The notes: generated by a model from the sequence alone, not told the origin. A DNA stretch of 43,841 bases from Mollicutes bacterium (GCA_012837765.1 DUQO01000043.1:1-43841); one strand, 5' to 3'. Positions 246 to 29,361 are shown, numbered from the stretch's first letter. A program made the numbers and translations.

Positions 246-698
246 ATGGAATATAAAATAACAACAAGAAATGAATTAGAAACAATTGCAATAGCACAAA
301 ACATTGAAGCTGAAAAATTTCCTGATATGATCATTTGTCTTGAAGGTGATTTGGGCAGTGGTAAAACAGTATTTACAAAAGGATTCGCTTCATCTTTAGG
401 GATAGATGAAAGTATTACATCTCCAACATTCAATATTATAAAGGAGTATACTACGGGAGAAGCTCCTCTTTATCATATGGATGTGTATCGTTTAAATGGC
501 GATGTAAGTAACCTTGGTTTAGAGGAATACTATAAAAAAGGTGGGATTGTTATTATTGAATGGGCAGATACAATTGAACAATACTTACCTGAAGAACGTT
601 TAGATATAAAGATAAAAATTATTGATGAAGATACACGAGTCCTTATTTTCAAACCTCATGGTAAAATTTATGAGGATATATGTGAGGCTGTACTATGA
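246..698 (+). CDS. tsaE: TsaE, ATPase of the t6A tRNA modification complex
   Basis: TsaE is the ATPase partner of TsaB/TsaD in making N6-threonylcarbamoyladenosine at position 37 of ANN-decoding tRNAs. The 150-aa protein has a P-loop GDLGSGKT at residues 34-41, the TsaE hallmark YHMDVYRL in the middle and the IIEWAD motif of this family. An upstream GTG (237) and ATG (240) are in frame, but AGGTGA at 235-240 is well spaced only for the ATG at 246. The stop overlaps the tsaB start by 4 nt (ATGA), so translation is coupled. Length is typical for the family. Confidence 0.93.
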   Translation: MEYKITTRNELETIAIAQNIEAEKFPDMIICLEGDLGSGKTVFTKGFASSLGIDESITSPTFNIIKEYTTGEAPLYHMDVYRLNGDVSNLGLEEYYKKGGIVIIEWADTIEQYLPEERLDIKIKIIDEDTRVLIFKPHGKIYEDICEAVL

Positions 699-1330
699 AG
701 TCTCTTTTTATAGACACTTCAACAAAAACATTAACAATAGCTATATTAGAAAATAATAAATTACTAAGTAACAAAACATCAGAAACAACAAATGAGCATT
801 CTAAATATGCTTTAGATTTATTAAAGAAAGCTTTTGATGAAACTTTAATAAAACCAAATGAAATAGAAAAAATTTTTGTTATAAATGGACCAGGGTCTTT
901 CACAGGAGTACGTATTGGTGTTACTATTGCAAAAACATATGCTTGGGCTTTAGAAAAAAAGCTTGTTCCTATATCAAGCTTATTTGCGCATGCACTAAGT
1001 TACGATGGTTACGATTACTATGTTTCCTTATTAGATGCAAGACGTGGTTTTGTATATGCTGCTATATATGATAGAGAATATAATTTCATTTTAAAAGAAC
1101 AATATATAAGCATAGTTGAATTGAATGGTGCTATTGAGAAATTAAATGGTTCAATCATTATAATAGGGGATATTTCAATAAATTATTCTGAAAGCAGTCC
1201 TCTTGTTTTAGACGTACCTAAAATAATTACGCATTGTAAAGATTATAAAACAGTTCCTGCGCATTCTTTAAAACCTAATTATTTGAAAAGGGTAGAAGCA
1301 GAGGAAAAATTGATGGCGGAAAATAAATGA
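695..1330 (+). CDS. tsaB: TsaB, t6A biosynthesis scaffold protein
   Basis: TsaB is a catalytically inactive ASKHA-fold paralogue of TsaD that dimerises with it for t6A37 synthesis. The 211-aa protein starts with the phosphate-1-like strand FIDTSTKTLTIAI and has the family motif GPGSFTGVRIG near residues 67-77. It overlaps tsaE by 4 nt and rimI by 4 nt, so tsaE, tsaB and rimI form one tightly coupled unit with tsaD following. The C-terminal part is poorly conserved, as usual for TsaB. Confidence 0.93.
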   Translation: MKSLFIDTSTKTLTIAILENNKLLSNKTSETTNEHSKYALDLLKKAFDETLIKPNEIEKIFVINGPGSFTGVRIGVTIAKTYAWALEKKLVPISSLFAHALSYDGYDYYVSLLDARRGFVYAAIYDREYNFILKEQYISIVELNGAIEKLNGSIIIIGDISINYSESSPLVLDVPKIITHCKDYKTVPAHSLKPNYLKRVEAEEKLMAENK

Positions 1331-1737
1331 TAAGAGAATACAAAGAAAAAGACATTGTCTTTATTGAGCAAATAGGACAAGTTATAAATAAAAACTATAA
1401 ATTTAAAACTAACCCCTATACAACATGCTTTGTTTATGAACAGGATGATAAGATTATAGGGTTTGTTATTTTTGCAATAATGTATGAAAAAGCAGAGATA
1501 ATAGATATAGCAGTTTCTGAAGAAGCACAAAGAAAAAGTATAGGAACTAAATTATTAACAACTGCTTTAAAAGAATGCTCTTCAAATAATTGTGAAAGCG
1601 TTACTTTAGAAGTAAGAAATAGTAATAAAAAGGCAATCTCTTTCTATAAAAAAATGGGCTTTAGGGAACTTTCAACCAGAAAGAGTTATTATTATGATGG
1701 AGAAGATGCCTTACTTATGATAAAGATGGTGATGTAA
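1327..1737 (+). CDS. rimI: RimI-like GNAT N-acetyltransferase
   Basis: A 136-aa single-domain GNAT acetyltransferase. The acetyl-CoA binding loop is visible as QRKSIGTKLL around residues 62-71, followed by the typical LEVRNSNKKAISFYKKMGF strand-helix of RimI proteins. RimI acetylates the N-terminus of ribosomal protein S18 in E. coli; the target here is inferred from the family and from its usual position between tsaB and tsaD. It overlaps tsaB by 4 nt and shares one base with tsaD (TAATG). Confidence 0.88.
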   Translation: MIREYKEKDIVFIEQIGQVINKNYKFKTNPYTTCFVYEQDDKIIGFVIFAIMYEKAEIIDIAVSEEAQRKSIGTKLLTTALKECSSNNCESVTLEVRNSNKKAISFYKKMGFRELSTRKSYYYDGEDALLMIKMVM

Positions 1738-2756
1738 TGAAAGATACATATATATTAGGGATTGAATCAAGTTGTGATGAAACGAGTGCTAGTATTGTTA
1801 AAAATGGCAGGGAAGAAATTAGTACCGTTATAGCTACTCAAATGGATATCCATAAAGTTTATGGAGGGGTAGTGCCTGAAATAGCAAGTCGTAATCATGT
1901 TGAGAATATTACAATGGTAATTGAAGAAACACTATCTAAAGCTAATATGAAATTAGAAGACATCGATGCAATTGGAGTTACTCATGGACCAGGTCTTATT
2001 GGTTCATTACTTATTGGGTTGCAAGCAGCTAAAACACTGTCTTTTCTATATGATAAGCCATTGATCCCTGTTCATCATATTGCAGGACATATTTATGCTA
2101 ATAGATTGGTTGATGAATTTAACTTTCCTTTAATTGCTTTAGTCATAAGTGGTGGTCACACCGATTTAATATATATGGCTGGCGACTATTCATTTAAAAA
2201 AATTGGAGGCACTTTAGATGATGCTGTTGGAGAAGCTTATGATAAAGTTGCTAAAATAATGGGATTGGATTATCCTGGAGGACCTATAATTGATGAATTA
2301 TCTAAAAAGGGAGAAGATACTTACGATTTACCTATACCACTTGATGATGATAGTAACAACTTTAGTTTCAGTGGTATTAAAAGTGCTGTGGTAAATTTAG
2401 TACATAATGAAAAACAAAGGGGAAATATTATTCATAAGGAGAACCTTGCAAGATCTTTTCAAGAAAGAGTAATTCATATTTTAACCAAAAAAACAATGCG
2501 TGCTTTAAAGGAAAATAACATATCGACTTTATTACTTGCTGGTGGTGTATCAGCTAATAGTGCGCTTAGGGAAAGATTTACTGAATTGTGTGAAAAAGAA
2601 AATATAAACCTCCTTATTCCTCCATTAAAATATTGCACTGATAATGCTACAATGATTGCCACAGCAGCATATTATGCTTATCAAAAAGGGATAACAAGTG
2701 ATTTACTTTTAAATGCTAAAGCAACAATATCGCTTGAGAAAGAAGGTATTGAATAA
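1737..2756 (+). CDS. tsaD: TsaD, tRNA threonylcarbamoyladenosine transferase
   Basis: TsaD transfers the threonylcarbamoyl group to A37 of tRNA. The 339-aa protein has the N-terminal GIESSCDETSAS motif, the metal-binding histidines in PVHHIAGHIYA, the glycine-rich GPGLIGSLLIG segment, and LLLAGGVSAN with a late NAT motif (TDNATMIA), all expected of the ASKHA transferase. Length is normal. It is the fourth gene of the operon, and a pilin-like gene begins 1 nt after its stop. Confidence 0.96.
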   Translation: MKDTYILGIESSCDETSASIVKNGREEISTVIATQMDIHKVYGGVVPEIASRNHVENITMVIEETLSKANMKLEDIDAIGVTHGPGLIGSLLIGLQAAKTLSFLYDKPLIPVHHIAGHIYANRLVDEFNFPLIALVISGGHTDLIYMAGDYSFKKIGGTLDDAVGEAYDKVAKIMGLDYPGGPIIDELSKKGEDTYDLPIPLDDDSNNFSFSGIKSAVVNLVHNEKQRGNIIHKENLARSFQERVIHILTKKTMRALKENNISTLLLAGGVSANSALRERFTELCEKENINLLIPPLKYCTDNATMIATAAYYAYQKGITSDLLLNAKATISLEKEGIE

Positions 2757-2757
2757 T

Positions 2758-3126
2758 ATGAAAAACAAAGGGTTTACAATGGTGGAATTACTATCTGTAA
2801 TAATAATATTAGGAATTATTTTATCGATGGTTACAATAGGTGTTAACTCATATTTAAATAAATCACAGGAAGCATCATTTAACACATTGGTTGAATCGAT
2901 TAAGGCATCTACAGAATTATATCTAGCAGATAATAGTTATAAATATCCAGAGTTAGAAACACCGGGTTCTGTTTTTGAAATAGAGCTGAAGGAATTAGTT
3001 GAAAAAAATTATATTACATCAAAATTAACGGATGAACGAAAAAAGCAACCAATACCTCTTACAACCAAAATATCTATTACAGTAATTGCTACTGACAACA
3101 TAAAAATTGATTTTCTATATGAATAA
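2758..3126 (+). CDS. Type IV pilin-like (pseudopilin) protein
   Basis: The 122-aa protein begins MKNKGFTMVELLSVIIIL, a class III prepilin leader: a short basic leader, Gly at -1, Phe at +1, Glu at +5, then a hydrophobic helix of about 20 residues. It would be processed and methylated by a prepilin peptidase and assembled into a pilus or competence pseudopilus. The rest is a small soluble domain with no Cys pair. It lies 1 nt after tsaD, so it depends on the upstream promoter. A longer in-frame start at 2713 lies inside tsaD and would bury the leader, so ATG 2758 was chosen. ComGC-type, general pseudopilin or surface filament roles cannot be told apart. Confidence 0.8.
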   Translation: MKNKGFTMVELLSVIIILGIILSMVTIGVNSYLNKSQEASFNTLVESIKASTELYLADNSYKYPELETPGSVFEIELKELVEKNYITSKLTDERKKQPIPLTTKISITVIATDNIKIDFLYE

Positions 3127-3159
3127 AAGTTCATTAATAATATTTAATGAACTTTTTTT
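3127..3159. terminator. Bidirectional Rho-independent terminator
   Basis: Arms AAGTTCATTAA and TTTAATGAACTT around a short AT loop, with T-tracts on the plus strand and A-tracts giving U-runs on the minus strand. It sits between the convergent pilin-like gene and ABC permease gene. The permease stop codon (3134-3136) lies inside the hairpin. Confidence 0.8.
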
Positions 3160-3922
3160 CTGTCATTACAATTATATAATAAATTATAATCGACAAACAG
3201 CAAAGCAAAATGATTCCAGTCATAACAAGATTTAAATTAAACACTTGAGATCCATACATTATTAAATATCCTAAACCTTCTTTTGATACTAATAATTCTC
3301 CCATAATTACACCAATAAGTGACATACTAATGTTAATTTTTAAAATATTGAAGATTGTTTTAATATTGCCAGGTATTACGAGATTAGTAAATATTTGCCA
3401 TTTACTAGCTTTAAAACTCTTTAATAATTTTATTCTACTTTCATCTGTATTACTGAATCCATGGTAGGCATTAATGATAGTAATGATAACAGAAATCAAT
3501 AGTGCCATAACTATAATAGAATTCATATTAGCGCCTACCCATATAATAAGAATAGGTCCTAATGCTACTTTTGGTAAACTATTTAAAATGGTAAGATAAG
3601 GACTTATCACTCTTGCAGTAAAATTGTTCCACCACATGAGTGATGCTATTATTAAACCTATAAGAGTTCCTATGAAAAAACTTATAATTGTTTCGTAAGC
3701 AGTAATAAAAATATGCTTAAATAAATTTCCTTCCTTATATAAAGATATTATAGTTTTGACTACGTTGCTAGGGCTTGATGTAAGAAAAGTATTAATTAAA
3801 TTATAATGACTTGCAATTTCCCATAAAACTATAAAAAGAATGAATACAATGATTTGAGTAATTAACACTAATCTATTTTTTTTCTTTATTTTTTTTAAAT
3901 AAACTTTATGTTCTTCAGACAT
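3134..3922 (-). CDS. ABC transporter permease, NitT/TauT (SsuC-like) family
   Basis: A 262-aa integral membrane protein of the BPD_transp_1 family with about six hydrophobic segments. The EAA-type loop that contacts the ATPase is near residues 155-180 (LLKSFKASKWQIFTNLVIPG). It is the last gene of a minus-strand operon in the order binding protein, ATPase, permease, and overlaps the ATPase gene by 8 nt. The partner genes make it part of an importer of small organic molecules. The substrate cannot be read from the permease. Confidence 0.9.
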   Translation of the reverse strand: MSEEHKVYLKKIKKKNRLVLITQIIVFILFIVLWEIASHYNLINTFLTSSPSNVVKTIISLYKEGNLFKHIFITAYETIISFFIGTLIGLIIASLMWWNNFTARVISPYLTILNSLPKVALGPILIIWVGANMNSIIVMALLISVIITIINAYHGFSNTDESRIKLLKSFKASKWQIFTNLVIPGNIKTIFNILKINISMSLIGVIMGELLVSKEGLGYLIMYGSQVFNLNLVMTGIILLCCLSIIIYYIIVMTEKKFIKYY

Positions 3923-4664
3923 TGATATCCAAATCCTCCCATATCATTTTGTAATATGTATTAAATTGTTCATGAGTTCTCTTATCTGAAGGAGTTGTAT
4001 TATCATTAAATTTGATTTTATAAACATTTTTAATTTTAGCAGGTCTTTTACTTAAGACAATAACTGTGTCTGCCATACTTATTGCTTCGCCTATATCGTG
4101 TGTTACCATTATGGTTGTTTTCTTTTCCTTTTTAATTATTTCATACACATCATTTGAAACTTCTAGTCTAGTTTGATAATCAAGTGATGAGAATGCTTCA
4201 TCTAAAAGAAGAATATCAGGGTTTATAGCTAAAGTTCTAATTAAGGCGACACGTTGTCTCATACCGCCTGATAGTGACGATGGATAAGAGTTAATAAAGT
4301 CGCCCAATCCATAAGTCTTTATTAAAGAAATAGTTCTTTCTTTTGTTTCTTTATTTAAATTTCCATTTATCTTTAAACCTAAAAGAGCATTATCTAATAC
4401 AGACAACCAAGGAAGTAAAGTATCGTTTTGCAACATATAACCAATTACTGCATCTTTTTTATTAAACAATATTTTTCCACCTGATTTTTTTTCAATACCG
4501 CATAAAATAGAAAGTATTGTTGATTTACCACAACCTGAAGGACCCACTATAGCAATAAAAGATGAATCATCTACATTGAAACTAAAGTCTTTAACTGCTT
4601 CTATCTCGCCGTTAACTGTATGATAACGTTTGTTTAGTTTGACAATTTTTAATATTTCCTTCAT
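3915..4664 (-). CDS. ABC transporter ATP-binding protein, SsuB/TauB-like
   Basis: A 249-aa ABC ATPase with Walker A GPSGCGKST near residues 41-49, a Q-loop (MLQND), signature LSGGMRQR, Walker B ILLLDEAFSSLD and H-loop MVTHD. The best family fit is the nitrate/sulfonate/taurine/thiamine-precursor group. It lies 12 nt after the binding-protein gene and overlaps the permease gene by 8 nt. It would power uptake through the permease from the cytoplasmic face. Confidence 0.93.
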   Translation of the reverse strand: MKEILKIVKLNKRYHTVNGEIEAVKDFSFNVDDSSFIAIVGPSGCGKSTILSILCGIEKKSGGKILFNKKDAVIGYMLQNDTLLPWLSVLDNALLGLKINGNLNKETKERTISLIKTYGLGDFINSYPSSLSGGMRQRVALIRTLAINPDILLLDEAFSSLDYQTRLEVSNDVYEIIKKEKKTTIMVTHDIGEAISMADTVIVLSKRPAKIKNVYKIKFNDNTTPSDKRTHEQFNTYYKMIWEDLDINV

Positions 4665-4676
4665 AAGAAAATTCCT

Positions 4677-5666
4677 CTACTTTGAGAAGGAATTGTCAAT
4701 TAATTTATCAAATGGTGCCTTTTTATCTAGTTCATTAGCGCTAATCATTATTTCTTGTAAATGGTTAAATGATTGTTCGGTTAATTTTGTTGTTTTCCAC
4801 CATGAATCTTGGTCTTTATATCTTTTTACAACTTCAATTAATTCATTTAATGTTAAGTCTGGAAAAAATTTATATATGCTGTTTGCAATTTCTTCATTAC
4901 TTTTCTTATGTACAAAATCAAGTCCCTTTTGTATCGCTTTAGTGAATCCTTCGATTACCTTAGGATTATCTTTTATATAACTTTTTTTAGCATGGTATGC
5001 TGTGTATGCAATTTCACCACCTAATTGTCCAATTGACGCTACAACATGACCATAACCTTGTTTTTCAATTTGTAATGCAACTGGTTCAAATAATGTAACA
5101 AAGTCGCCTGTTCCCCCTATAAAAGCGCCTTGCATCGCAGCAAAAGCAATACTAGTATCAATTGTTAGATCCTTCTTAGGGTCAATTCCGTGTTGTTTTA
5201 AAGCCCATTCAAACGTCATCTCAGGCATACCGCCTTTACGTCCACCAATTACATATTTTCCTTTTAAATCTTTTAATGTAAAATTATCAAATTTTTTACG
5301 TGATACTAAAAATGATCCGTCTCTTTTGGTAAGTCCTGCAAAAGTGATTAAATAGTCTTTTTCTCCACTGTTGTAAACATATATTGTTGCTTCTGGTCCA
5401 GAAAATCCAATTTGAACATCACCAGATAAAACCGCGGCAGCTACTTTGTCAGCCCCTGGTGTTAATATTAGTTCTATATCTAATCCTTCTTCTTCGAAAT
5501 AACCTTCGCTAAGTGCTACATATTGTGGAGCGTAAAAAACACTGTGTGTTACCTCGGCTAATTTAATTTTAGTTTTATTGCTATTCTTGGCATTGTTGAA
5601 AATAAGTATAGAACCAGCAAGCATAATTCCAACAAGAATAACAACAGATGTAATAAATTTTTTCAT
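4677..5666 (-). CDS. ABC transporter substrate-binding protein, NMT1/SsuA-like
   Basis: A 329-aa protein with an N-terminal hydrophobic segment (about residues 5-24) and an NMT1-type periplasmic-binding fold, typified by FYAPQYVALSEGYFEEEGLD, LSGDVQIGFSGPEA and VIGGRKGGMPEM. The lipobox position reads MLAGS with Ser where lipoproteins have Cys, so it is probably held by an uncleaved N-terminal helix rather than a lipid. The family includes binders of sulfonates, nitrate, riboflavin and thiamine pyrimidine precursors; the ligand here is undetermined. A strong Shine-Dalgarno, AAGGAGG, precedes the ATG. Confidence 0.88.
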   Translation of the reverse strand: MKKFITSVVILVGIMLAGSILIFNNAKNSNKTKIKLAEVTHSVFYAPQYVALSEGYFEEEGLDIELILTPGADKVAAAVLSGDVQIGFSGPEATIYVYNSGEKDYLITFAGLTKRDGSFLVSRKKFDNFTLKDLKGKYVIGGRKGGMPEMTFEWALKQHGIDPKKDLTIDTSIAFAAMQGAFIGGTGDFVTLFEPVALQIEKQGYGHVVASIGQLGGEIAYTAYHAKKSYIKDNPKVIEGFTKAIQKGLDFVHKKSNEEIANSIYKFFPDLTLNELIEVVKRYKDQDSWWKTTKLTEQSFNHLQEIMISANELDKKAPFDKLIDNSFSK

Positions 5667-5690
5667 TCTAAAACCTCCTTTTTCTATTGC

Positions 5691-5696
5691 ATTATA
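5691..5696 (-). promoter_or_regulatory. -10 element for the ABC transporter operon
   Basis: On the minus strand this reads TATAAT and lies 25 nt upstream of the binding-protein start. No convincing -35 is seen. The 129-nt gap to rsmI is shared by two divergent transcripts and is too short to hold a full riboswitch plus both promoters. Confidence 0.4.
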
Positions 5697-5731
5697 TTCT
5701 CTAAAAAAGAATGAGTGATTAGAATAAACAG

Positions 5732-5759
5732 TTAAAAGTATTTAGATATAGTGTATAAT
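5732..5759 (+). promoter_or_regulatory. Promoter of rsmI
   Basis: TTAAAA at 5732-5737, a 16-nt spacer and a perfect TATAAT at 5754-5759 preceded by GTG. It lies 37 nt upstream of the rsmI start. Confidence 0.5.
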
Positions 5760-5795
5760 AACTAAAGAAGCAAATAAAAAGGAATGAGGTTTATT

Positions 5796-6677
5796 ATGAA
5801 CGGAAAATTATTTGTAGTAGCAACACCAATTGGGAATTTAAAAGATATTAGTCAAAATGCTATTGAAACTTTAAATGTATCAGATTTAATTGCAGCAGAG
5901 GATACAAGAGTAACGATCAATTTGCTAAGACATTTTGATATTAAAACAAAATTGGTCTCATATCATAAATTTAATGAAAAAATGCAAAGTCAAAAATTGA
6001 TTGAAGAAATGATGAAAGGAAAAAATATTTGTCTTGTTACGGATGCTGGTACACCATGCATATCTGATCCAGGTAGTATTCTTGTAAGAGAAGCTATAGA
6101 TAGGGGGATAGAAGTAATTGGAATTCCAGGACCAAGTGCTGTTATAACAGGATTATCTATTTCTGGTTTTGATATTTCATCTTTTTCCTTTTATGGTTTT
6201 TTAGCAAAAGAAAAAAAGAAATTTAATGAGGCTTTAAATAACATTAAAAATGATAGTTCTAAGATTGCCGTAATATATGAATCCCCTAAAAGAGTGGTTA
6301 ACACACTAAAGCAGATAACAGAAACATTAAACAATCCTAAAGTTTGTGTGTGCAATGATTTAACTAAAAAATTTGAAAAAAAATATTATGGTTCATGTGA
6401 CGAAGTAATAGAAATGCTAAATAATAATCAAAATCATGAATTAGGTGAATATGTAATAATTATAGAAAAAAATGAAATGACATTTACAACAGAATATACT
6501 ATTTTATCGATTGAAGCCGATTTAGTTGATGCTATGATTAAAAATAACTGTACCATGAAAGAAGCTATAAAAATTGTGTCTAGTAATCGAAAAAAAGCAA
6601 ACAGCAAAAGTGAAGTTTATGAAGCTTCGTTGAAAGTTAAAGAGATGTTTTTGGATAATATTGACAAAAACAAATAA
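5796..6677 (+). CDS. rsmI: RsmI, 16S rRNA (cytidine-1402 2'-O) methyltransferase
   Basis: RsmI 2'-O-methylates C1402 in the decoding centre of 16S rRNA using S-adenosylmethionine. The 293-aa protein starts with KLFVVATPIGNLKDIS and carries the family segments AAEDTRVT, LVTDAGTPCISDPG and GIPGPSAVITGLSISG of the tetrapyrrole methylase fold. An in-frame ATG at 5784 has no room for an SD, whereas ATGAGGT at 5784-5790 is 5 nt before ATG 5796. The C-terminal 70 residues are the variable RsmI tail. It appears monocistronic. Confidence 0.93.
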   Translation: MNGKLFVVATPIGNLKDISQNAIETLNVSDLIAAEDTRVTINLLRHFDIKTKLVSYHKFNEKMQSQKLIEEMMKGKNICLVTDAGTPCISDPGSILVREAIDRGIEVIGIPGPSAVITGLSISGFDISSFSFYGFLAKEKKKFNEALNNIKNDSSKIAVIYESPKRVVNTLKQITETLNNPKVCVCNDLTKKFEKKYYGSCDEVIEMLNNNQNHELGEYVIIIEKNEMTFTTEYTILSIEADLVDAMIKNNCTMKEAIKIVSSNRKKANSKSEVYEASLKVKEMFLDNIDKNK

Positions 6678-17453: not shown

Positions 17454-17894
17454 ATGAAAATAATAAAGAAATATAAATGGTTTATTTTAGGTTTCTTCAT
17501 TCTTTTAGCAATCATCGCCGTTTGGCTAGGCAAGGATTTGCTTTTGAATATAGATGGTGCATTGTATGGCCATAGATTGGAAGGAATTGAAGATGTACCT
17601 ATAACAAATGAAACTAAAAAGGAAATTTCTGATTTTCTTTCGAGTACAGAGGGTGTAGAAAAGGTAAAAATTTATGTACATGGTAAGATACTCAATATTA
17701 TTATTTGGGTAGATGATACAATGACAGTGGATAAAGTAAAAGAAATTTCTAATGCTGCATTAGAAAAATGTAGTGAAGAACAAAAATCTTTTTATGACAT
17801 TTCATTCCTCATTGATTATGCAAAAGAAACAGAAGATAAAAAATTCCCTATGATAGGTAATAAAAATAAAAACAGTAAGCAGATTGTTTGGTAG
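17454..17894 (+). CDS. Single-pass membrane protein of unknown function
   Basis: A 146-aa protein with an N-terminal basic stretch, one membrane helix (about residues 8-32) and an exported or cytoplasmic domain of about 110 residues with alternating strands and helices (GVEKVKIYVHGKILNIIIWV, then a helix rich in Lys/Glu). No family is recognised. A tail of Asn/Lys residues ends the protein. SD TTGAGGAG precedes the ATG. It is the first gene of an operon with the GGDEF-like receptor, 11 nt upstream of it, so a role in the same membrane signalling or envelope process is plausible. Confidence 0.75.
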   Translation: MKIIKKYKWFILGFFILLAIIAVWLGKDLLLNIDGALYGHRLEGIEDVPITNETKKEISDFLSSTEGVEKVKIYVHGKILNIIIWVDDTMTVDKVKEISNAALEKCSEEQKSFYDISFLIDYAKETEDKKFPMIGNKNKNSKQIVW

Positions 17895-17905
17895 TAGGTG
17901 ATAAA

Positions 17906-19939
17906 ATGAAAGGCAAAAAAAGTACTAAGTGGCTTATAATAGTTTTAGCAATATTAATTGTTACTGCCAGTATAATTTTGTATAATACTTTTAATACAGA
18001 AGGTCCAAAAGATGGTGTTAAACTTAATCTTTTTGAACAACGTTGGATACAAAATAATAAAAATAAAATTATTAACATCTCAATTCCAAATAATATACCA
18101 GTCTTCAGTTACGAAGGTAGTGGTATAGCCTTTTCCTTTTTAAATTTCTTTGAAGAGGGAACGGAATTAGAATTAAACAAAGTGCCATATATTGAATTGG
18201 ATGATAGCACAGCTAATAGTATAAGAATTCTTAGAAATAGCCAAAAAACAAGTAATAAAGATTTATTGTTTTATTTAGATAATTATGTTTTAGTAAGTAA
18301 AACTCAGGTCGTTAAAAAACCTGTGGATCAATTGACTGGAACAATAGGTGTTTTAGATATAGACTTTAATGATGTTTCATCATATTTGGTTGGTAACAAA
18401 TTAACTTTTACAAGAGTTGACGATATTGACAATTTAATTTTAATGTTAAATGAAGGTGAAGTTGATTATATAATCGTACCTGAATTGTTATATCTAGATG
18501 TGATAATTGAAAATGATTTTTATATTATTAATACATTAAACAATTTATCGTTAAAGTATGTTTTAACTCTTTCTGAGGATGGTGGAAACTTAAACGATAT
18601 TATAAAAAAATATTATAAAGAATGGACTAATAACTATCTAGCTGACAATTATTACACCGAGTTATTAAATTTATATACATCTATTAAACAAATAGATGAT
18701 AAAAGCAAGACCGATTTTAAAAGTAAAAGATATATCTATGGTTATGTTGAAAATCCACCTTATGAAGTTAACAAGAATGGTGAATTGGCTGGTTTAAGTG
18801 GTGAATTTATTAAATCCTTTACAGCTTTTTCCGAAATTGAATTTAACTTTAAAAGATATGAAAATGTTAAAGAATTAAATAAAGCATTAGAAGAAGGTAA
18901 AATTGATATAGCTCTAAATTATCATGATTTAAATACAGCTAATACATATAAAACAGTAGATATATTATATAGCGACTATATTATTCTAGTAAAAGATGGA
19001 AATTACATTATAGATACAATTAAATCTCTTGAAGGAGAAACGATTTATACTCTAAAGGATTCTAAATTGTCTAGTTATATTAGCAAAAATAGTAGATTTA
19101 ATGTTAAAGAAGTAGATAGAATAGAATTGTTAAAAAACAGAAATCTTATTTTAATGGATTATAAAACATATACATATTATAAAAATGATTATTTTAACGA
19201 TTATAATGTTGTATATCAAAACAAAATAGATACTAATTATGGATATGTAATAAAGAAAAAAGATATAAATGATGTATTTTATAATGTTTTCAATTATTAT
19301 ATATCGACCTTAAATCATAAGCAGTATGAAAATGTGGGTATAAAAAAAATAATGACTAAAGCCTTTTATATAGATTTATCATTATTATGGCTTTATGTTA
19401 TATTGATTCCTATCTTTATTGGTTTAATGATTCTTATTGTGAGAAAAAGAAAAAAGATAATTAAAGTAAGAAACGATATTAAATTAAAATACATAGATCC
19501 TTTAACATCTCTTAAAAACAGATATTATTTAAATACTAATATTGCAAAATGGGAAGAGAATAAGATATATCCACAAGCAATAATAGTAATTAATATCAAT
19601 AATTTAAAAGATATTAATGACGCTTATGGTTATGAAGGCGGCGATCAACTTATAAAAGCAGCTGCTAACATACTTATAAATAATCAAATTGAAAAAACGG
19701 ATATAATAAGAACAGATGGTAATGAATTTGTTATATACATGGTTGGTTATGAAGAAAGCGCTGTTATAGCTTATGTTAGAAAACTATATCGTTTACTAAA
19801 AGATTTACCATATGAATACGGTGCATCATTAGGATATAGTATGATTGAGGATGATATAAAAACAATAGAAGATGCTATTAATGAAGCTATCTTAGATATG
19901 ATAACTAATCGTGAAGCGAAACAAAATAATGATATTTAG
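17906..19939 (+). CDS. Receptor with tandem solute-binding domains and a degenerate GGDEF domain
   Basis: A 677-aa protein: membrane helix at about 8-29, two SBP_bac_3-like modules outside the membrane (about 40-265 and 280-485; the second begins YGYVENPPYEVNKNGELAG), a second helix at about 490-514, and a C-terminal GGDEF-type domain (518-677). The domain has DPLTSLKNRYYLN and INDAYGYEGGD, keeping the GTP-contact Asn and Asp, but the signature loop reads TDGNEF instead of GGDEF and the first metal Asp is Asn (VININNLK). It is therefore probably not an active diguanylate cyclase and may sense GTP or a cyclic dinucleotide. Starts at TTG 17888 are possible, but AGGTGA fits ATG 17906. Confidence 0.82.
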   Translation: MKGKKSTKWLIIVLAILIVTASIILYNTFNTEGPKDGVKLNLFEQRWIQNNKNKIINISIPNNIPVFSYEGSGIAFSFLNFFEEGTELELNKVPYIELDDSTANSIRILRNSQKTSNKDLLFYLDNYVLVSKTQVVKKPVDQLTGTIGVLDIDFNDVSSYLVGNKLTFTRVDDIDNLILMLNEGEVDYIIVPELLYLDVIIENDFYIINTLNNLSLKYVLTLSEDGGNLNDIIKKYYKEWTNNYLADNYYTELLNLYTSIKQIDDKSKTDFKSKRYIYGYVENPPYEVNKNGELAGLSGEFIKSFTAFSEIEFNFKRYENVKELNKALEEGKIDIALNYHDLNTANTYKTVDILYSDYIILVKDGNYIIDTIKSLEGETIYTLKDSKLSSYISKNSRFNVKEVDRIELLKNRNLILMDYKTYTYYKNDYFNDYNVVYQNKIDTNYGYVIKKKDINDVFYNVFNYYISTLNHKQYENVGIKKIMTKAFYIDLSLLWLYVILIPIFIGLMILIVRKRKKIIKVRNDIKLKYIDPLTSLKNRYYLNTNIAKWEENKIYPQAIIVININNLKDINDAYGYEGGDQLIKAAANILINNQIEKTDIIRTDGNEFVIYMVGYEESAVIAYVRKLYRLLKDLPYEYGASLGYSMIEDDIKTIEDAINEAILDMITNREAKQNNDI

Positions 19940-23741: not shown

Positions 23742-25775
23742 ATGAGAAAGATTAATGATATTTTTCATAAGATAATTTCTTTTGTGTTATCTTTTTCGTT
23801 TTGTTTATCATCCTTTGCTAATCCTATAAAAGCGTATGCTCAAACGATTACTAAATCAATTGTAAACGATAATCATATTAGGGTAAGAACAGGAGCAGGC
23901 ACAACGTTTTCTATTGTTCAAGTTGATGGAAAAGACCTTAAACTTAATGCCGGACATGTTGTTACTGTTTTAAGTGAAATTGAAAATCCTAGCGATAGTA
24001 ATTGTGAATCTAGAATATGGAAAAACATAGAGTTTATATATGATAGCAAGTCTTACAATGGATATATGTGTGGCGATTACATTACAACCACTGTATACGA
24101 ACCAATTGATGACAGTGATTTTGATGCTTATTTAATTAATGAGGGGTTTCCTGAAAGTTATTGGGCACAATTAAAAGAATTACATGCTATGCATCCAAAT
24201 TGGAAATTTAAGGCTATAAAAACAGGAATTAGTTGGAAAACGATAGTTGATAACCAAAGTGCTGCAACAGGAAAAAGTTTAATTCAGACCTCTTATGACG
24301 GATGGAAAAACATAGATACATATATTTACAGCACTAATAAATTTAGAGATGATTATCGTGGTGGTGGACCAGGTTGGTATGCTGCAAGCAGAGAAATTGT
24401 ATCTTATTACCTAGATCCAAGAAATTTCTTATCAGAAATTGATGTATTTATTTTCGAAAGAACATCATATGATCCAAGTAATCATACATTAGAAGGTGTT
24501 GAACGAATATTAAAAGGAACATGGATGGAAAACAAAATTGTTGAAGGAACTACGAAGACTTATGCACAGGTATTTATAGATGCTGCAATAGATTCTCAAG
24601 CAAGTCCTTATTTTTTAGCATCTCGTGTAATTCAAGAACTAGGGCGTTCTACACCAAGTTCTATTATTTCAGGTACAATAGCAGGATATGAAGGGTATTA
24701 CAATTATTATAATATCAATGCAACAGGTTCATCTGTTCCTTCAGAAATAATTGCCAGAGGTTTAAATTATGCAAAAAGTAAAGGTTGGGATAGCAGGTAT
24801 AAGGCAATTCTAGGTGGTGCTAAATGGATAGCTGATGGTTATATTAATATTGGGCAAGATACCCTTTATACTCAAAAATGGGATATAGTAGGAGATTTAT
24901 TTTCTCATCAATATATGCAAAATATTCAAGCTCCTGCAAGCGAAGTTACCTCTGTATATCGAAGTTATTTAGAAATGGGAATTATCGATATAGGCTTTAT
25001 TTTTAACATTCCTGTATACGATGACATGCCGTCATCGCCAGTTCCGTTACCTAGTAAAGAAAACCCTATTTCTTATTTAAGTTCTATCTCAATTAACAAC
25101 AATAGTTTAACAACATTTAGTTATGATAAAGATACATATCATTATACCGTTTCTTCTGACGCATCAACTATTGATATTAAAGCTCTACCAAAAATTAATG
25201 GTGCAAAGGTAACTGGAACAGGCATTATAAACTTGGAAGATGATGTGACTAATATTGAACTTGTTGTTACAGCGTTGAATGGTAATCAAAAGACCTATAA
25301 AATTATAGTTACTAAGAGTGCTGAAGTTAATGCCAACATTGACGAGGTTATGGTTAATAGTGGAATGAAGTATGATGATAACTTTATATGGGGATTAGAA
25401 CTTGGAACTCATTCAAGCGTTTTGATAAATAACATAAAAAACGTTAATGCCAATACTAATGTTTCAATAATGAATAGTCAAGGAACACCAAAAAAAGAAG
25501 AGAAGATGTCTACTGGTGACAAAATAATAATATCAATAAATAATGAGACCAAAACATATGATTCAGTAGTATATGGTGATGTAAGCGGAGATGGGGAAAT
25601 TACAGTATTAGATTTATTGAAAGTTCAAAAGCATATCTTAGGATCTGCAAAACTTAATAGTTCAAGTAGTTACTATAAAGCAGCGGATGTAAGTAAAGAT
25701 TCAAATATTACAGTATTAGATTTATTGAAAATTCAAAAACACATCTTGGGTTCTAGCCCTATTTCACAATCATAG
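23742..25775 (+). CDS. Secreted glucosaminidase with C-terminal type I dockerin
   Basis: A 677-aa secreted protein. The signal peptide is likely cleaved after AYA at residue 33. An SH3b-like domain follows (about 38-115), then an endo-beta-N-acetylglucosaminidase (LytD-type) domain at about 130-405 (SPYFLASRVIQELG, GYEGYYNYYNINA), which cuts peptidoglycan glycan strands. A cadherin-like beta-sandwich sits at 444-525, a linker module at 526-608, and a dockerin at 609-677 with two nearly identical F-hand repeats (DVSGDGEITVLDLLKVQKHI and DVSKDSNITVLDLLKIQKHI) bearing calcium-ligand Asp residues at positions 1, 5 and 12. SD AAAGGAAGG supports ATG 23742. The cohesin partner is the next gene. Confidence 0.9.
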   Translation: MRKINDIFHKIISFVLSFSFCLSSFANPIKAYAQTITKSIVNDNHIRVRTGAGTTFSIVQVDGKDLKLNAGHVVTVLSEIENPSDSNCESRIWKNIEFIYDSKSYNGYMCGDYITTTVYEPIDDSDFDAYLINEGFPESYWAQLKELHAMHPNWKFKAIKTGISWKTIVDNQSAATGKSLIQTSYDGWKNIDTYIYSTNKFRDDYRGGGPGWYAASREIVSYYLDPRNFLSEIDVFIFERTSYDPSNHTLEGVERILKGTWMENKIVEGTTKTYAQVFIDAAIDSQASPYFLASRVIQELGRSTPSSIISGTIAGYEGYYNYYNINATGSSVPSEIIARGLNYAKSKGWDSRYKAILGGAKWIADGYINIGQDTLYTQKWDIVGDLFSHQYMQNIQAPASEVTSVYRSYLEMGIIDIGFIFNIPVYDDMPSSPVPLPSKENPISYLSSISINNNSLTTFSYDKDTYHYTVSSDASTIDIKALPKINGAKVTGTGIINLEDDVTNIELVVTALNGNQKTYKIIVTKSAEVNANIDEVMVNSGMKYDDNFIWGLELGTHSSVLINNIKNVNANTNVSIMNSQGTPKKEEKMSTGDKIIISINNETKTYDSVVYGDVSGDGEITVLDLLKVQKHILGSAKLNSSSSYYKAADVSKDSNITVLDLLKIQKHILGSSPISQS

Positions 25776-25783
25776 GAGGCAAT

Positions 25784-27136
25784 ATGAGACATAAATTTTT
25801 AACTTTTCTATTTATTTTATTAACAAGCTTTGGAATAGCCGTAACAAAAGCAGAAGCTGCAAGTGCAACCATTAGTGTTACCGCTTCACCGACAAAAGTG
25901 GTGGTAGGAAACACGGTAACTGTAACAGTGAAACTATCTTCAGCATCCTCATTAGGTGCATGGAACTTCGATGTTATGGCATCTTCTAATTTGACACTTA
26001 CATATAGTTCTTTTCAAAATTCATTATATGTAGCTGATGTTGCGTCTTCTACTAATCAAAAATCAAAAACATATACTTTTAAATTTAAAGCTAAATCAAG
26101 TGGAACAGCAACTGTTGCAATAAAAAATTCATATGTATTAGATTATGATGAAAACGTTATGTCTACAACCAATGGCTCTAGAACTATTTCAATTATTACA
26201 CAAAAGCAATTGGAAGATTCGTATAGTAAAAACAATAATTTAGCAAGCCTTTCAATACAGGGAGCTACTTTATCACCTGAGTTTAATAAAGACGTATTAG
26301 AATATACAACTGAATTACCACCAGAAACTACTAAAATAAATATTGAAGCTTCAGTAGAGGATAAAAAGGCAAGTGTTGCTGGTGTAGGCGAAATAGATGT
26401 AACAGATGGCAATAATCGTCTTGAAGTAAAAGTTACAGCTGAAAATGGTACTGTTAAAACATATGTTATCAATGCAGTAGTCAAAGAATATAATCCAATT
26501 GAAGTAAAAATAGGAGAATCAAAATATACTGTTGTTAGAAAAAAAGCAATGTTAGAAGCGCCAAGAAATTACACTGAAACAACGATAACTATGAACGATG
26601 AACAAATACCTGCATTTACAAATGAAATAACTAAATTTACCTTGATAGGTTTAAAAGATAGTGAAGGTAATATTGATTACTATATTTATGATCAATCTAA
26701 TGATACATATACTTTATATATGGAATTATCTTTTGATAAACTTGTTTTTTATCCTATGGAAGTGGATGCTAAAGATATTTCAAAGGAATACAAAAAGACT
26801 TCTGTTCTTTACGGAGACCAAGAAGTAGAAGCTTACAAAATAAAAGCAAGTTCTCGTTTTGCTCTATTATATGGTATGAATGTTGAAACAGGGGAAAAGG
26901 CATATTATTTATTTGATACAAAAGATAACACTTTACAATATTACAATTCTGAAGAAATGGATATATTAAACAAAGAAAACAACAAATTTTTTGTTGCAAT
27001 AATTATTTTAGGAGTAGTATCACTTCTATCAATAATTCTTAATATTCTTCTTTTAATTGTTATGTATAAAGAAAAAAAGACAAGAAAAGTTTCTAAAATG
27101 AATAAAAAGAATAATAAAAACACTTCTAATCAATAG
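25784..27136 (+). CDS. Membrane-anchored cohesin-like scaffold protein
   Basis: A 450-aa exported protein. The signal peptide ends after AEA at residue 25. A cohesin-type beta-sandwich spans about 27-139 (ISVTASPTKVVVGNTVTVTV, SLGAWNFDVMAS, and the strands ending GSRTISII). A cadherin-like beta-sandwich follows (about 150-232), then a region of unknown fold, one membrane helix at about 402-427 and a Lys/Asn-rich cytoplasmic tail. It would display a dockerin-binding domain on the cell surface. It starts 8 nt after the dockerin-glucosaminidase gene with SD ATAGGAGG, so the pair is cotranscribed. Binding between the two is inferred from domain type, not shown. Confidence 0.83.
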   Translation: MRHKFLTFLFILLTSFGIAVTKAEAASATISVTASPTKVVVGNTVTVTVKLSSASSLGAWNFDVMASSNLTLTYSSFQNSLYVADVASSTNQKSKTYTFKFKAKSSGTATVAIKNSYVLDYDENVMSTTNGSRTISIITQKQLEDSYSKNNNLASLSIQGATLSPEFNKDVLEYTTELPPETTKINIEASVEDKKASVAGVGEIDVTDGNNRLEVKVTAENGTVKTYVINAVVKEYNPIEVKIGESKYTVVRKKAMLEAPRNYTETTITMNDEQIPAFTNEITKFTLIGLKDSEGNIDYYIYDQSNDTYTLYMELSFDKLVFYPMEVDAKDISKEYKKTSVLYGDQEVEAYKIKASSRFALLYGMNVETGEKAYYLFDTKDNTLQYYNSEEMDILNKENNKFFVAIIILGVVSLLSIILNILLLIVMYKEKKTRKVSKMNKKNNKNTSNQ

Positions 27137-27161: not shown

Positions 27162-29339
27162 TTAATCTGTTTCCTCATCAATTTCAGGAGGGGGTTCAAC
27201 TTCTTTTTCATATGAATAGTATTCTATAATCATTGTTTTATTAAGGACATCGTAAATTTGTTTTCCAATTAAGTCTTTAGTTTGAGAAACAACTTTATTA
27301 TTGTCTTCTTCTACTTCTGTTGAAACCTTTTTTAAAGTAATGATAAATGGAAAATATGTTATATTCTTTTTCCATGCATTTACTTCGTTTATTGTTTTAT
27401 CACTAAAATCAGGTATTGTACAAAGTTCATTATCTTTATCTTCTTCGCTTGTACAGTCAATTTTAACGTTTTGAACAGGGTCCTTTTTCTTAATTATGTT
27501 TAATGTAATTCCAGTTGTTTTGTTAACTAATGATAATAATGAGTTAGCAGGAATACTTTGATATGTAATTTGACCTTCTTTATATTTTTCTTCACTTGAT
27601 TCCACAGTGTTAAAATTAATTGTAATGCCTTTACTATTACCCCAATTAGTAGCTTGTTCCTTTGTGTACCCTGTGAAGTCTGGAACTAATTGTATTTTAG
27701 CTTCGTTATAAACGCCGTTCCCAATAATTGGTTCAACATAAGGCGTGTTTATTGAAAAGGAAAAGGTTTTAATAATTGTTGGATTTTTTAGACCAAGATT
27801 GATCTTCATTGCTTCTACAATCTCGTTTAAACTACCCTTATAATATATTTGATTCGACAAGTTTATTTTTGATCTTTCATCATATATATATTGTCCGTAT
27901 GTCTTTAATTGTAACTTTTGAAAAGTTATAACATCACCATCAGCTTGTGATTTAGATATAATACTTTTACCAACATTATAGAAAGACAATATTTGATTGG
28001 TTGTAAGGTTTGTATCCATACTTTTTTCTAGTAAATCTAATATTTCATAAAGTTTATTTATATCTCGAATATCTTTTATTTTATTAGCCAGAGCTCTAAT
28101 TACTAACTGTTGATTTTGTCCACGCACAATGTCGCTTCTTTCACCTTGGTTCCATTGTGGTCCACATGCCTTTGGCCATGTGTGGCGATTTCTAGTAAGT
28201 GCTAAAGCTTGTTCTCCATTTAAGGTTTGTATTCCTTTTTCTACGTATACAGTATTTGCGCCCCACTGACGTCTACTATTTTGTTCACAAAAACTATATG
28301 GAACATCTACTTGAATACCACCAACTGCATCAACTAATTTGACCAGTCCTGTAAAATTTATTTTAACATAGTAATTAATATCTATATTCATAAAGTTCTC
28401 AACTGTTTTTATGACACACGATTCACCACTCCACCCAGAGTGTGTTATCTTATTTTGAATATGATTCTTCATACACATTATAGGTACAAAAGTATCTCTT
28501 GGAATACTTACCATGGTAGCATTTAAGGTTTTAGGGTTAAAAGTTAAAAGCATAATTGTGTCAGCATTAAATGATGTAGGAAGACCTTCTAAATCATCAT
28601 CAGATGATTGAACACCTAATATAAGCATGGTAAAAGGATCTTTAATGCTTACATTGTAATTATTCGAAATGTTTTCTTGTTTTTCCATTACTTTGGTTTT
28701 GGTAATAAGAACTTTTGTTGTTTCGCTAATATTTCCGAAATGTTCAATTGAACCATATGTTGATGCATACTGACTTGATATAAAAATTGCATCGATATTC
28801 TCATCGTATAAATCATTTAGCATCAATATAAAATTATCATATTGTACAAGACTGTTTTTATCAATGTTCTTCTCTTTAATAATTTCTTGACTTATCACAT
28901 AACCTTCGATACTATTAGTATCTTTAATAATTCCTATTTTTTTATTTTTTAAGTTATCAATATCTATATTTGTTTTAGATAGAGCAACTAAACTAGTACC
29001 ATATGTAACTTTACTCTTATTCATGTTGCTGATTGAAGAATAGGCTTTATCGATGTAATGACCACCTATAGTAAATACAATGGTCAAAAGTAAAAAAGGT
29101 ATTGTAAATAAAATAGCATGTTTCTTTTTTCCTTTTTTAATTATTTTGATGGATAGAAAAAAACCTAAAATAATTAGACCAACAATAAAAGCAATACCAC
29201 AAAAACGAAGGGTATCTTCAATACCGTTTAATTTTAATATATTATATATAAGGAAAAGAGAACTAAAACCAAACAAAATTATAGTTAATATAGTTAAACT
29301 TTTCATTACTTTTAAAATACTTATAGTTTTCTTGCTCAT
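27162..29339 (-). CDS. LCP-family protein with solute-binding-like and PASTA-like modules
   Basis: LCP (LytR-CpsA-Psr) enzymes transfer wall teichoic acid or other glycopolymers from lipid carriers to peptidoglycan. This 725-aa protein has three membrane helices near the N-terminus (about 8-88). A module resembling a truncated solute-binding protein follows (about 95-215; KKIGIIKDTNSIEGYVISQE). The LCP domain spans about 235-450, with MVSIPRDTFVP, DAVGGIQVDVP and LTRNRHTWP. Two C-terminal PASTA-like repeats come last (about 545-620 and 640-725; VPDFTGYTKEQATNWGNSKG, IPDFSDKTINEVNAW). PASTA domains bind wall fragments or glycan. Start ATG 29339 is 6 nt after GGAGG. It has its own TTGTAA-17-TATAAT promoter. 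Confidence 0.85.
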   Translation of the reverse strand: MSKKTISILKVMKSLTILTIILFGFSSLFLIYNILKLNGIEDTLRFCGIAFIVGLIILGFFLSIKIIKKGKKKHAILFTIPFLLLTIVFTIGGHYIDKAYSSISNMNKSKVTYGTSLVALSKTNIDIDNLKNKKIGIIKDTNSIEGYVISQEIIKEKNIDKNSLVQYDNFILMLNDLYDENIDAIFISSQYASTYGSIEHFGNISETTKVLITKTKVMEKQENISNNYNVSIKDPFTMLILGVQSSDDDLEGLPTSFNADTIMLLTFNPKTLNATMVSIPRDTFVPIMCMKNHIQNKITHSGWSGESCVIKTVENFMNIDINYYVKINFTGLVKLVDAVGGIQVDVPYSFCEQNSRRQWGANTVYVEKGIQTLNGEQALALTRNRHTWPKACGPQWNQGERSDIVRGQNQQLVIRALANKIKDIRDINKLYEILDLLEKSMDTNLTTNQILSFYNVGKSIISKSQADGDVITFQKLQLKTYGQYIYDERSKINLSNQIYYKGSLNEIVEAMKINLGLKNPTIIKTFSFSINTPYVEPIIGNGVYNEAKIQLVPDFTGYTKEQATNWGNSKGITINFNTVESSEEKYKEGQITYQSIPANSLLSLVNKTTGITLNIIKKKDPVQNVKIDCTSEEDKDNELCTIPDFSDKTINEVNAWKKNITYFPFIITLKKVSTEVEEDNNKVVSQTKDLIGKQIYDVLNKTMIIEYYSYEKEVEPPPEIDEETD

Positions 29340-29361
29340 CTTCAACCTCCATGCCTATATA

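Follow-up and report, generated by a model that had tools for sequence, protein, structure and literature searches.

A putative minimal cohesin-dockerin tether for a SagB-like glucosaminidase in gut Bacilli with small genomes

Two adjacent genes of a small bacterial genome probably encode a minimal, calcium-dependent cohesin-dockerin tether that would hold a single enzyme at the membrane. They lie on the plus strand of the window, here the whole stretch of 43,841 nucleotides that was analysed (Mollicutes bacterium, GCA_012837765.1 DUQO01000043.1:1-43841), and belong to the 1.0-Mb genome (70 contigs, 94% completeness) of an uncultured member of the Bacilli, which may perhaps be placed in RF39/UBA660-like groups. 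Cohesins and dockerins are famous as parts of cellulose-digesting machines; they are also found in many bacteria without a cellulosome, where their role is mostly unknown. The present case consists of a single plug, a single socket and a single enzyme; it is conserved throughout a large Bacilli family from the gut, whose genomes measure about 1 Mb, and the pair is not peculiar to the genome of the window. A literature search, with most subscription journals outside its scope, found no published account of it.

The first gene, ORF A (23742..25775, plus strand), encodes a protein of 677 amino acids, counted from an ATG at 23742 that is preceded by a ribosome-binding site (AAGGAAGGTGG); a GTG 9 nt 5' of this ATG is an alternative start. 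From the N-terminus it consists of a signal peptide (about residues 1-34) and an SH3-like region, followed by the glucosaminidase, a cadherin-like sandwich and, at the C-terminus, the dockerin. The catalytic domain (24471..25019), of the SagB/Atl-like, GH73 type, resembles the staphylococcal Atl/SagB-type glucosaminidases, with a best E value of 1.5e-13 in a phmmer search of the PDB. NCBIfam SagB matches at E 1e-17 and 64 bits, under its cut-off of 425, and PF01832 has no match in ORF A or anywhere in the genome of the window, so that the enzyme had to be placed via the PDB and NCBIfam. The catalytic residue, Glu299 (codon 24636-24638), is identical in 78 of 78 relatives and, when aligned to the staphylococcal structures, falls on the glutamate of their ETG motif. 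Judged from its sequence, ORF A is a real but diverged glucosaminidase: of the wall glucosaminidase or autolysin of the initial annotation, the glucosaminidase with its invariant glutamate stands, but it is SagB-like and not a canonical PF01832 autolysin. The cadherin-like beta-sandwich (25077..25316, PF12733) is one of only two such domains in the genome, the other being found in ORF B.

The type I dockerin of ORF A (25572..25748) is matched by PF00404 above the cut-off, at E 1.3e-13 to 3e-12, and is the sole dockerin found in a PF00404 search of the whole genome. Its two F-hand loops, at 25578-25613 (DVSGDGEITVLD) and 25686-25721 (DVSKDSNITVLD), both carry acidic calcium ligands, and both repeats have the Asp, Asn or Ser at loop positions 1, 3, 5 and 12 by which a type I dockerin is recognized. 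These ligands are also conserved in the dockerins of more than 220 relatives, with Asp in 100/91% at position 1, 95/88% at position 5 and 100/97% at position 12.

The second gene follows after a gap of 8 nt (25776..25783); its ribosome-binding site, AGGAGG, shares nucleotides with the stop codon of ORF A. ORF B (25784..27136, plus strand) encodes a predicted membrane-anchored cohesin receptor of 450 amino acids. A signal peptide (about residues 1-25) and the cohesin domain are followed by a cadherin-like beta-sandwich (26240..26473, PF12733), by a beta-rich conserved domain that we call Bmid (about residues 239-399; 26498..26980) and by a C-terminal transmembrane helix with a short basic tail (26987..27064). 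The helix is seen in hydropathy as well as in the model, and is common to 76 of 77 relatives. Bmid is defined by alignments, Pfam giving no match for the window copy or its relatives, and it is kept even where a receptor has no cohesin (L195 and L196), as well as in other families of Bacilli. The AlphaFold2 model of ORF B has a mean pLDDT of 91, with values mostly between 83 and 96 over Bmid. Both proteins carry predicted Sec signal peptides, and in the model ORF B shows the cohesin on a stalk above a single membrane helix. A scan for promoters and terminators gave no signal above shuffled sequences. Two other genes of the window may be mentioned. A LytR-CpsA-Psr protein with a C-terminal PASTA domain (27162-29345, minus strand), convergent with ORF B, is a wall-assembly protein adjoining the pair, and a GGDEF diguanylate cyclase with an extracellular region resembling solute-binding proteins (17888-19939, plus strand) is encoded in this 1-Mb genome.

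The identity of the N-terminal domain of ORF B (residues 27-139; 25862..26200), which the initial annotation had called a cohesin by eye, deserves closer attention. The Pfam cohesin model PF00963 has no match to the ORF B of the window, whether ORF B or the whole genome is searched, and in this copy the YD motif that normally follows strand 3 is altered. The family as a whole is recognized: PF00963 matches 11 of 30 ORF B relatives (best E 1e-7), and a profile of this domain by itself, run against the PDB, retrieves cohesins at E 6e-7, nearly the whole match list consisting of cohesins. The fold points in the same direction. Foldseek places the model of the window's own ORF B with 2w1n, 2jh2, 2xdh and 5n5p (E 6e-8 to 4e-5), and the solved cohesins 2xdh and 2vo8 are among the best matches of the model of a relative (L063). 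The N-terminal domain is shorter in other families of Bacilli and is likewise invisible to Pfam, but profile comparison relates these shorter domains to the ORF B family with a probability of 97.6% (E 4.5e-12). By profile, alignment and modelled fold, residues 27-139 are a cohesin, of which the window copy is too diverged for Pfam. A weak cohesin match elsewhere in the genome (C57, E 0.004) was set aside, since it falls short of the cut-off and the family models do not match it.

Most of what the initial annotation had proposed for the two proteins was confirmed in this way, namely the coordinates and the 8-nt gap, the secreted enzyme with its complete C-terminal type I dockerin, the intact calcium ligands, the cadherin-like domain in both proteins, the membrane helix, and the cohesin fold of residues 27-139. 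The cohesin call has to be qualified: it fails with Pfam on the window's own copy, but holds for the family with PF00963 and for the domain with the PDB profile and Foldseek.

The two genes travel together. In the 145 family genomes surveyed, almost every one from a different genus, 90 of 100 matches of the ORF B type have a dockerin directly upstream. The ten exceptions are of several kinds. Two (G110 and G099) do have the upstream dockerin, which the list or Pfam had failed to pick up; three (G142, G015 and G071) have the dockerin gene directly downstream, with an M6 peptidase domain in G142 and G015; one is truncated where its contig begins, another is that of G066, which lacks the dockerin, and the others are partial or distant matches. 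A dockerin is found in 92 of the 93 family genomes that have ORF B, versus 17 of the 52 that do not (Fisher 1e-19); these counts come from incomplete genomes. Eighty loci were fetched from public contigs of uncultured Bacilli, Tenericutes and Firmicutes metagenome-assembled genomes, many of them named after gut samples. In each of the 80, the gene directly preceding ORF B encodes a dockerin, at a distance of -31 to +25 nt, and in 79 of them this gene encodes the glucosaminidase type of ORF A, the remaining one being of the PF01832 type. The flanking genes are otherwise not conserved, the commonest neighbouring gene family being present near only 23 of 78 loci. This adjacency (80/80) far exceeds chance, and the dockerin-cohesin gene pair is a conserved module. 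A search for extra dockerins in relatives, suggested by the initial annotation, found exactly one in 64 of the 109 dockerin-bearing genomes of the family, that of the window included. Three genomes (G044, G020 and G051) have 10 to 12 dockerin matches each, versus one in most of the family.

Whether the dockerin and the cohesin of a pair touch each other was approached by modelling and by covariation. For docking, the in-frame stop of L063 was read as a residue, which gives a fused dockerin-linker-cohesin chain and is a modelling device only. AlphaFold2 folded both domains of this single chain with pLDDT above 90 and left them undocked (pTM 0.55). This result fits the reading that the two domains are not mutual partners, and that the proteins are co-transcribed surface proteins whose modules face other partners, such as other cells, host material or, for the dockerin, a second dockerin; the same may be said of one genus in which a cohesin-like domain is retained although the paired dockerin is missing. 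We consider this reading very improbable. In this genome there is a single dockerin and, above the Pfam cut-off, no further cohesin, and the strict 80/80 pairing, the matched loss described below and the correlated substitutions at a known contact all speak against it.

Mean-field direct coupling analysis of 221 dockerin-cohesin pairs (Neff 178, well-filled columns only) gave six top couplings between the proteins, all of which link cohesin columns 97 and 38/39 with positions 11 and 14 of the two F-hand repeats. The strongest exceed those of 60 random re-pairings and of 40 swaps between near relatives. As proof of pairing the magnitude of these couplings was rejected, since control domains score alike: in a smaller set, the dockerin paired with the non-cohesin domains of the same genes reaches similar z-scores. 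A test that removes deep phylogeny was based on correlated substitutions in 78 to 105 disjoint pairs of close relatives, under four matchings. Dockerin column 54 and cohesin column 40 rank first of 5,537 to 6,555 cells in all four (r 0.53-0.62), with a max-statistic P<0.002 (0/500 shuffles) in three matchings and P 0.008 in the fourth; dockerin column 20 with cohesin column 40 takes the second or third rank in two of them. Columns 20 and 54 are position 10 of the F-hand in repeats 1 and 2, respectively, and the Ser/Thr motif of the dockerin consists of positions 10 and 11. By HMM alignment, cohesin columns 40 and 42 are Asn37 and Asp39 of cohesin 2 of C. thermocellum, which in the window are Ala59 and Asn61 of strand beta-3 (GAWNF, 25955-25969); the numbering of the reference sequence agrees with the residues in the paper on the contacts. 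According to this paper, cohesin residues Asn37, Asp39, Gly123 and Ala125 contact the Ser/Thr motif of the dockerin (PMC5772552). The same test on a smaller, underpowered set of full-length proteins (53 pairs) gave a dockerin-cohesin maximum of P 0.13, whereas P values of 0.01-0.04 were obtained with some of the control domains. The coevolution argument therefore rests on the location of the signal and on the larger set, as the DCA controls behave alike and the smaller set is not significant. The correlated substitutions lend good, if not decisive, support to a direct contact in two orientations.

Within the class, proteins of the ORF B type are present in families f13, f19 and f16 too; outside it, a sample of 392 genomes from the phylum yielded none past E 1e-25. 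Outside the family of the window, the complete loci that have the N-terminal domain show a dockerin-ending gene directly upstream of the Bmid receptor in 15 of 15 cases (L178-L187 and L190-L194). With the dockerin retained, the cargo changes: it can be a PF01832 glucosaminidase, an Amidase_2 or a protein of metallo-beta-lactamase fold, and when all loci are counted, also an M6 peptidase (as in G142 and G015) or an S8 peptidase. A dockerin-bearing subtilase of G507 is separated by one gene from the cohesin protein (L188); this locus (695-6001, minus strand) is a three-gene variant, with the dockerin-ending subtilase, a 349-amino-acid gene, and a cohesin and cadherin-like protein. A second pair was observed in G045 (L203, 247-6098, minus strand), where a Big_2-repeat protein of 1575 amino acids with a different dockerin motif (NMTDLIKLRKYFAG) lies upstream of a 394-amino-acid cohesin protein with a C-terminal hydrophobic segment. 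Tree-based independent pairs that distinguish two putative specificity classes are few, two changing in the same direction and none in the opposite one. The classes would be formed by DLLxxQK dockerins with LGSWE cohesins and by DYVxxKN dockerins with shortened LAG-KF cohesins.

The unrelated cargo bears on a further reading, that the pair does bind but that ORF B activates or gates the enzyme, as an allosteric cofactor or with Bmid as a substrate-presenting scaffold, and is not an anchor only. Bmid is conserved without a Pfam match and is retained in both genomes that lack the cohesin domain and dockerins, and in SagB-SpdC it is the membrane protein that sets the orientation of the active site (PMC10581084). 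An amidase and a metallo-beta-lactamase fold on the same type of receptor argue against an enzyme-specific activator, and this reading seems unlikely to us, if less so than the absence of binding. In the reading as a tether, which we prefer, the cargo would be exchangeable, as the same type of receptor is found with other dockerin-tagged surface enzymes across Bacilli. At a little under even confidence, it may tentatively be suggested that several families of Bacilli share a general one-socket, one-plug type of surface display, in which the receptor is inherited with whichever enzyme has the matching dockerin, in at least two matched specificity classes, and which serves cell-wall and surface enzymes and not fibre digestion.

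The receptors of G484 and G495 begin at the cadherin-like domain, the upstream sequence being too short for a cohesin, and neither genome has a dockerin anywhere. This joint loss of cohesin and dockerin is a natural control that favours pairing. Genus g67 (G066 and G293) took another course: the cohesin-like domain is kept, with the interface motif GSW changed to GYY, while the enzyme ends after the catalytic domain and the dockerin is absent. The dockerin was lost from the enzyme at L200 (1818-4478, minus strand) and L198 (2086-4983, minus strand), and the L200 enzyme has many SH3-like repeats, perhaps a wall anchor in place of the dockerin. It could be imagined that in ORF A, too, the SH3-like and cadherin-like domains localize the enzyme to the wall, the contact through the dockerin being secondary or a vestige. 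The N-terminal SH3-like region of ORF A and the many SH3-like repeats of the dockerin-less enzyme of G066 are in keeping with this; a vestige is not expected, because the dockerin ligands and the pairing are strongly conserved over many genera, and we hold this reading to be quite improbable. The confidences in the tether and in its rivals overlap, because the readings of activation and of wall localization by SH3-like domains also include binding of the pair.

The calcium-dependent pairing as a tether, put forward by the initial annotation, is supported at the level of sequences by the one-to-one pairing, the matched loss in two genomes, the cargo swaps and the correlated substitutions. The tether may be pictured as follows. 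ORF A and ORF B would be co-translated, and the exported enzyme would dock, through its calcium-loaded dockerin, onto the cohesin at the tip of ORF B. Docking is probably possible in either of two orientations, because the recognition residues are identical in the two F-hand repeats. The stalk, made up of the cadherin-like domain and Bmid, would together with the membrane helix fix the distance of the enzyme outside the membrane, near the inner face of the wall. The tethered enzyme would then cut nascent or inner-wall glycan strands and not escape to the medium, in a manner that may be likened to the scaffolding of SagB by SpdC in S. aureus.

Such a system suggests a route other than SagB-SpdC for the retention of a peptidoglycan hydrolase at the membrane. 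Its losses and cargo swaps are natural experiments, by which the role of non-cellulosomal cohesin-dockerin pairs becomes testable. It also calls for caution, since a gut genome with a dockerin and a cohesin need not imply fibre degradation.

In certain aspects, the pair is reminiscent of the type I system of the C. thermocellum cellulosome: the duplicated calcium-binding F-hand dockerin at the C-terminus of an enzyme, the cohesin fold, and substitutions that correlate at the equivalents of the known contact between the Ser/Thr motif and Asn37. It differs in having one cohesin and one dockerin in the genome, no carbohydrate-binding module, a direct membrane anchor and a wall hydrolase as cargo. 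A cellulosome, which has several cohesins on a scaffoldin and a set of dockerin enzymes, or a remnant of one was rejected, given the one dockerin of the genome, the single cohesin domain of ORF B and the absence of a Pfam-level cohesin genome-wide. The best fold matches of the ORF B domain are non-cellulosomal cohesins, from Clostridium perfringens (2jh2, 2w1n and 2vo8) and Archaeoglobus fulgidus (2xdh). The C. perfringens cohesins have been described within glycoside hydrolases, whereas that of ORF B sits on a catalytically silent membrane receptor, the gene of which adjoins that of its presumed partner. The peptidoglycan release complex of S. aureus, where SagB is scaffolded by SpdC (PMC10581084), likewise combines a SagB-related glucosaminidase with a dedicated membrane partner. 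SpdC, however, is a multi-pass integral membrane protein resembling CAAX proteases, while ORF B crosses the membrane once and is built of beta-sandwich domains, and enzyme and partner are here predicted to be joined by a cohesin-dockerin contact; the pair is not SagB-SpdC, because the membrane partner is unrelated. Finally, the mucinolysome of Limousia is an instance of cohesin-dockerin pairs outside cellulose degradation in gut Bacillota (PMC12997984). It comprises multi-cohesin scaffoldins and many dockerin enzymes, in contrast to the one cohesin and one enzyme of the present pair.
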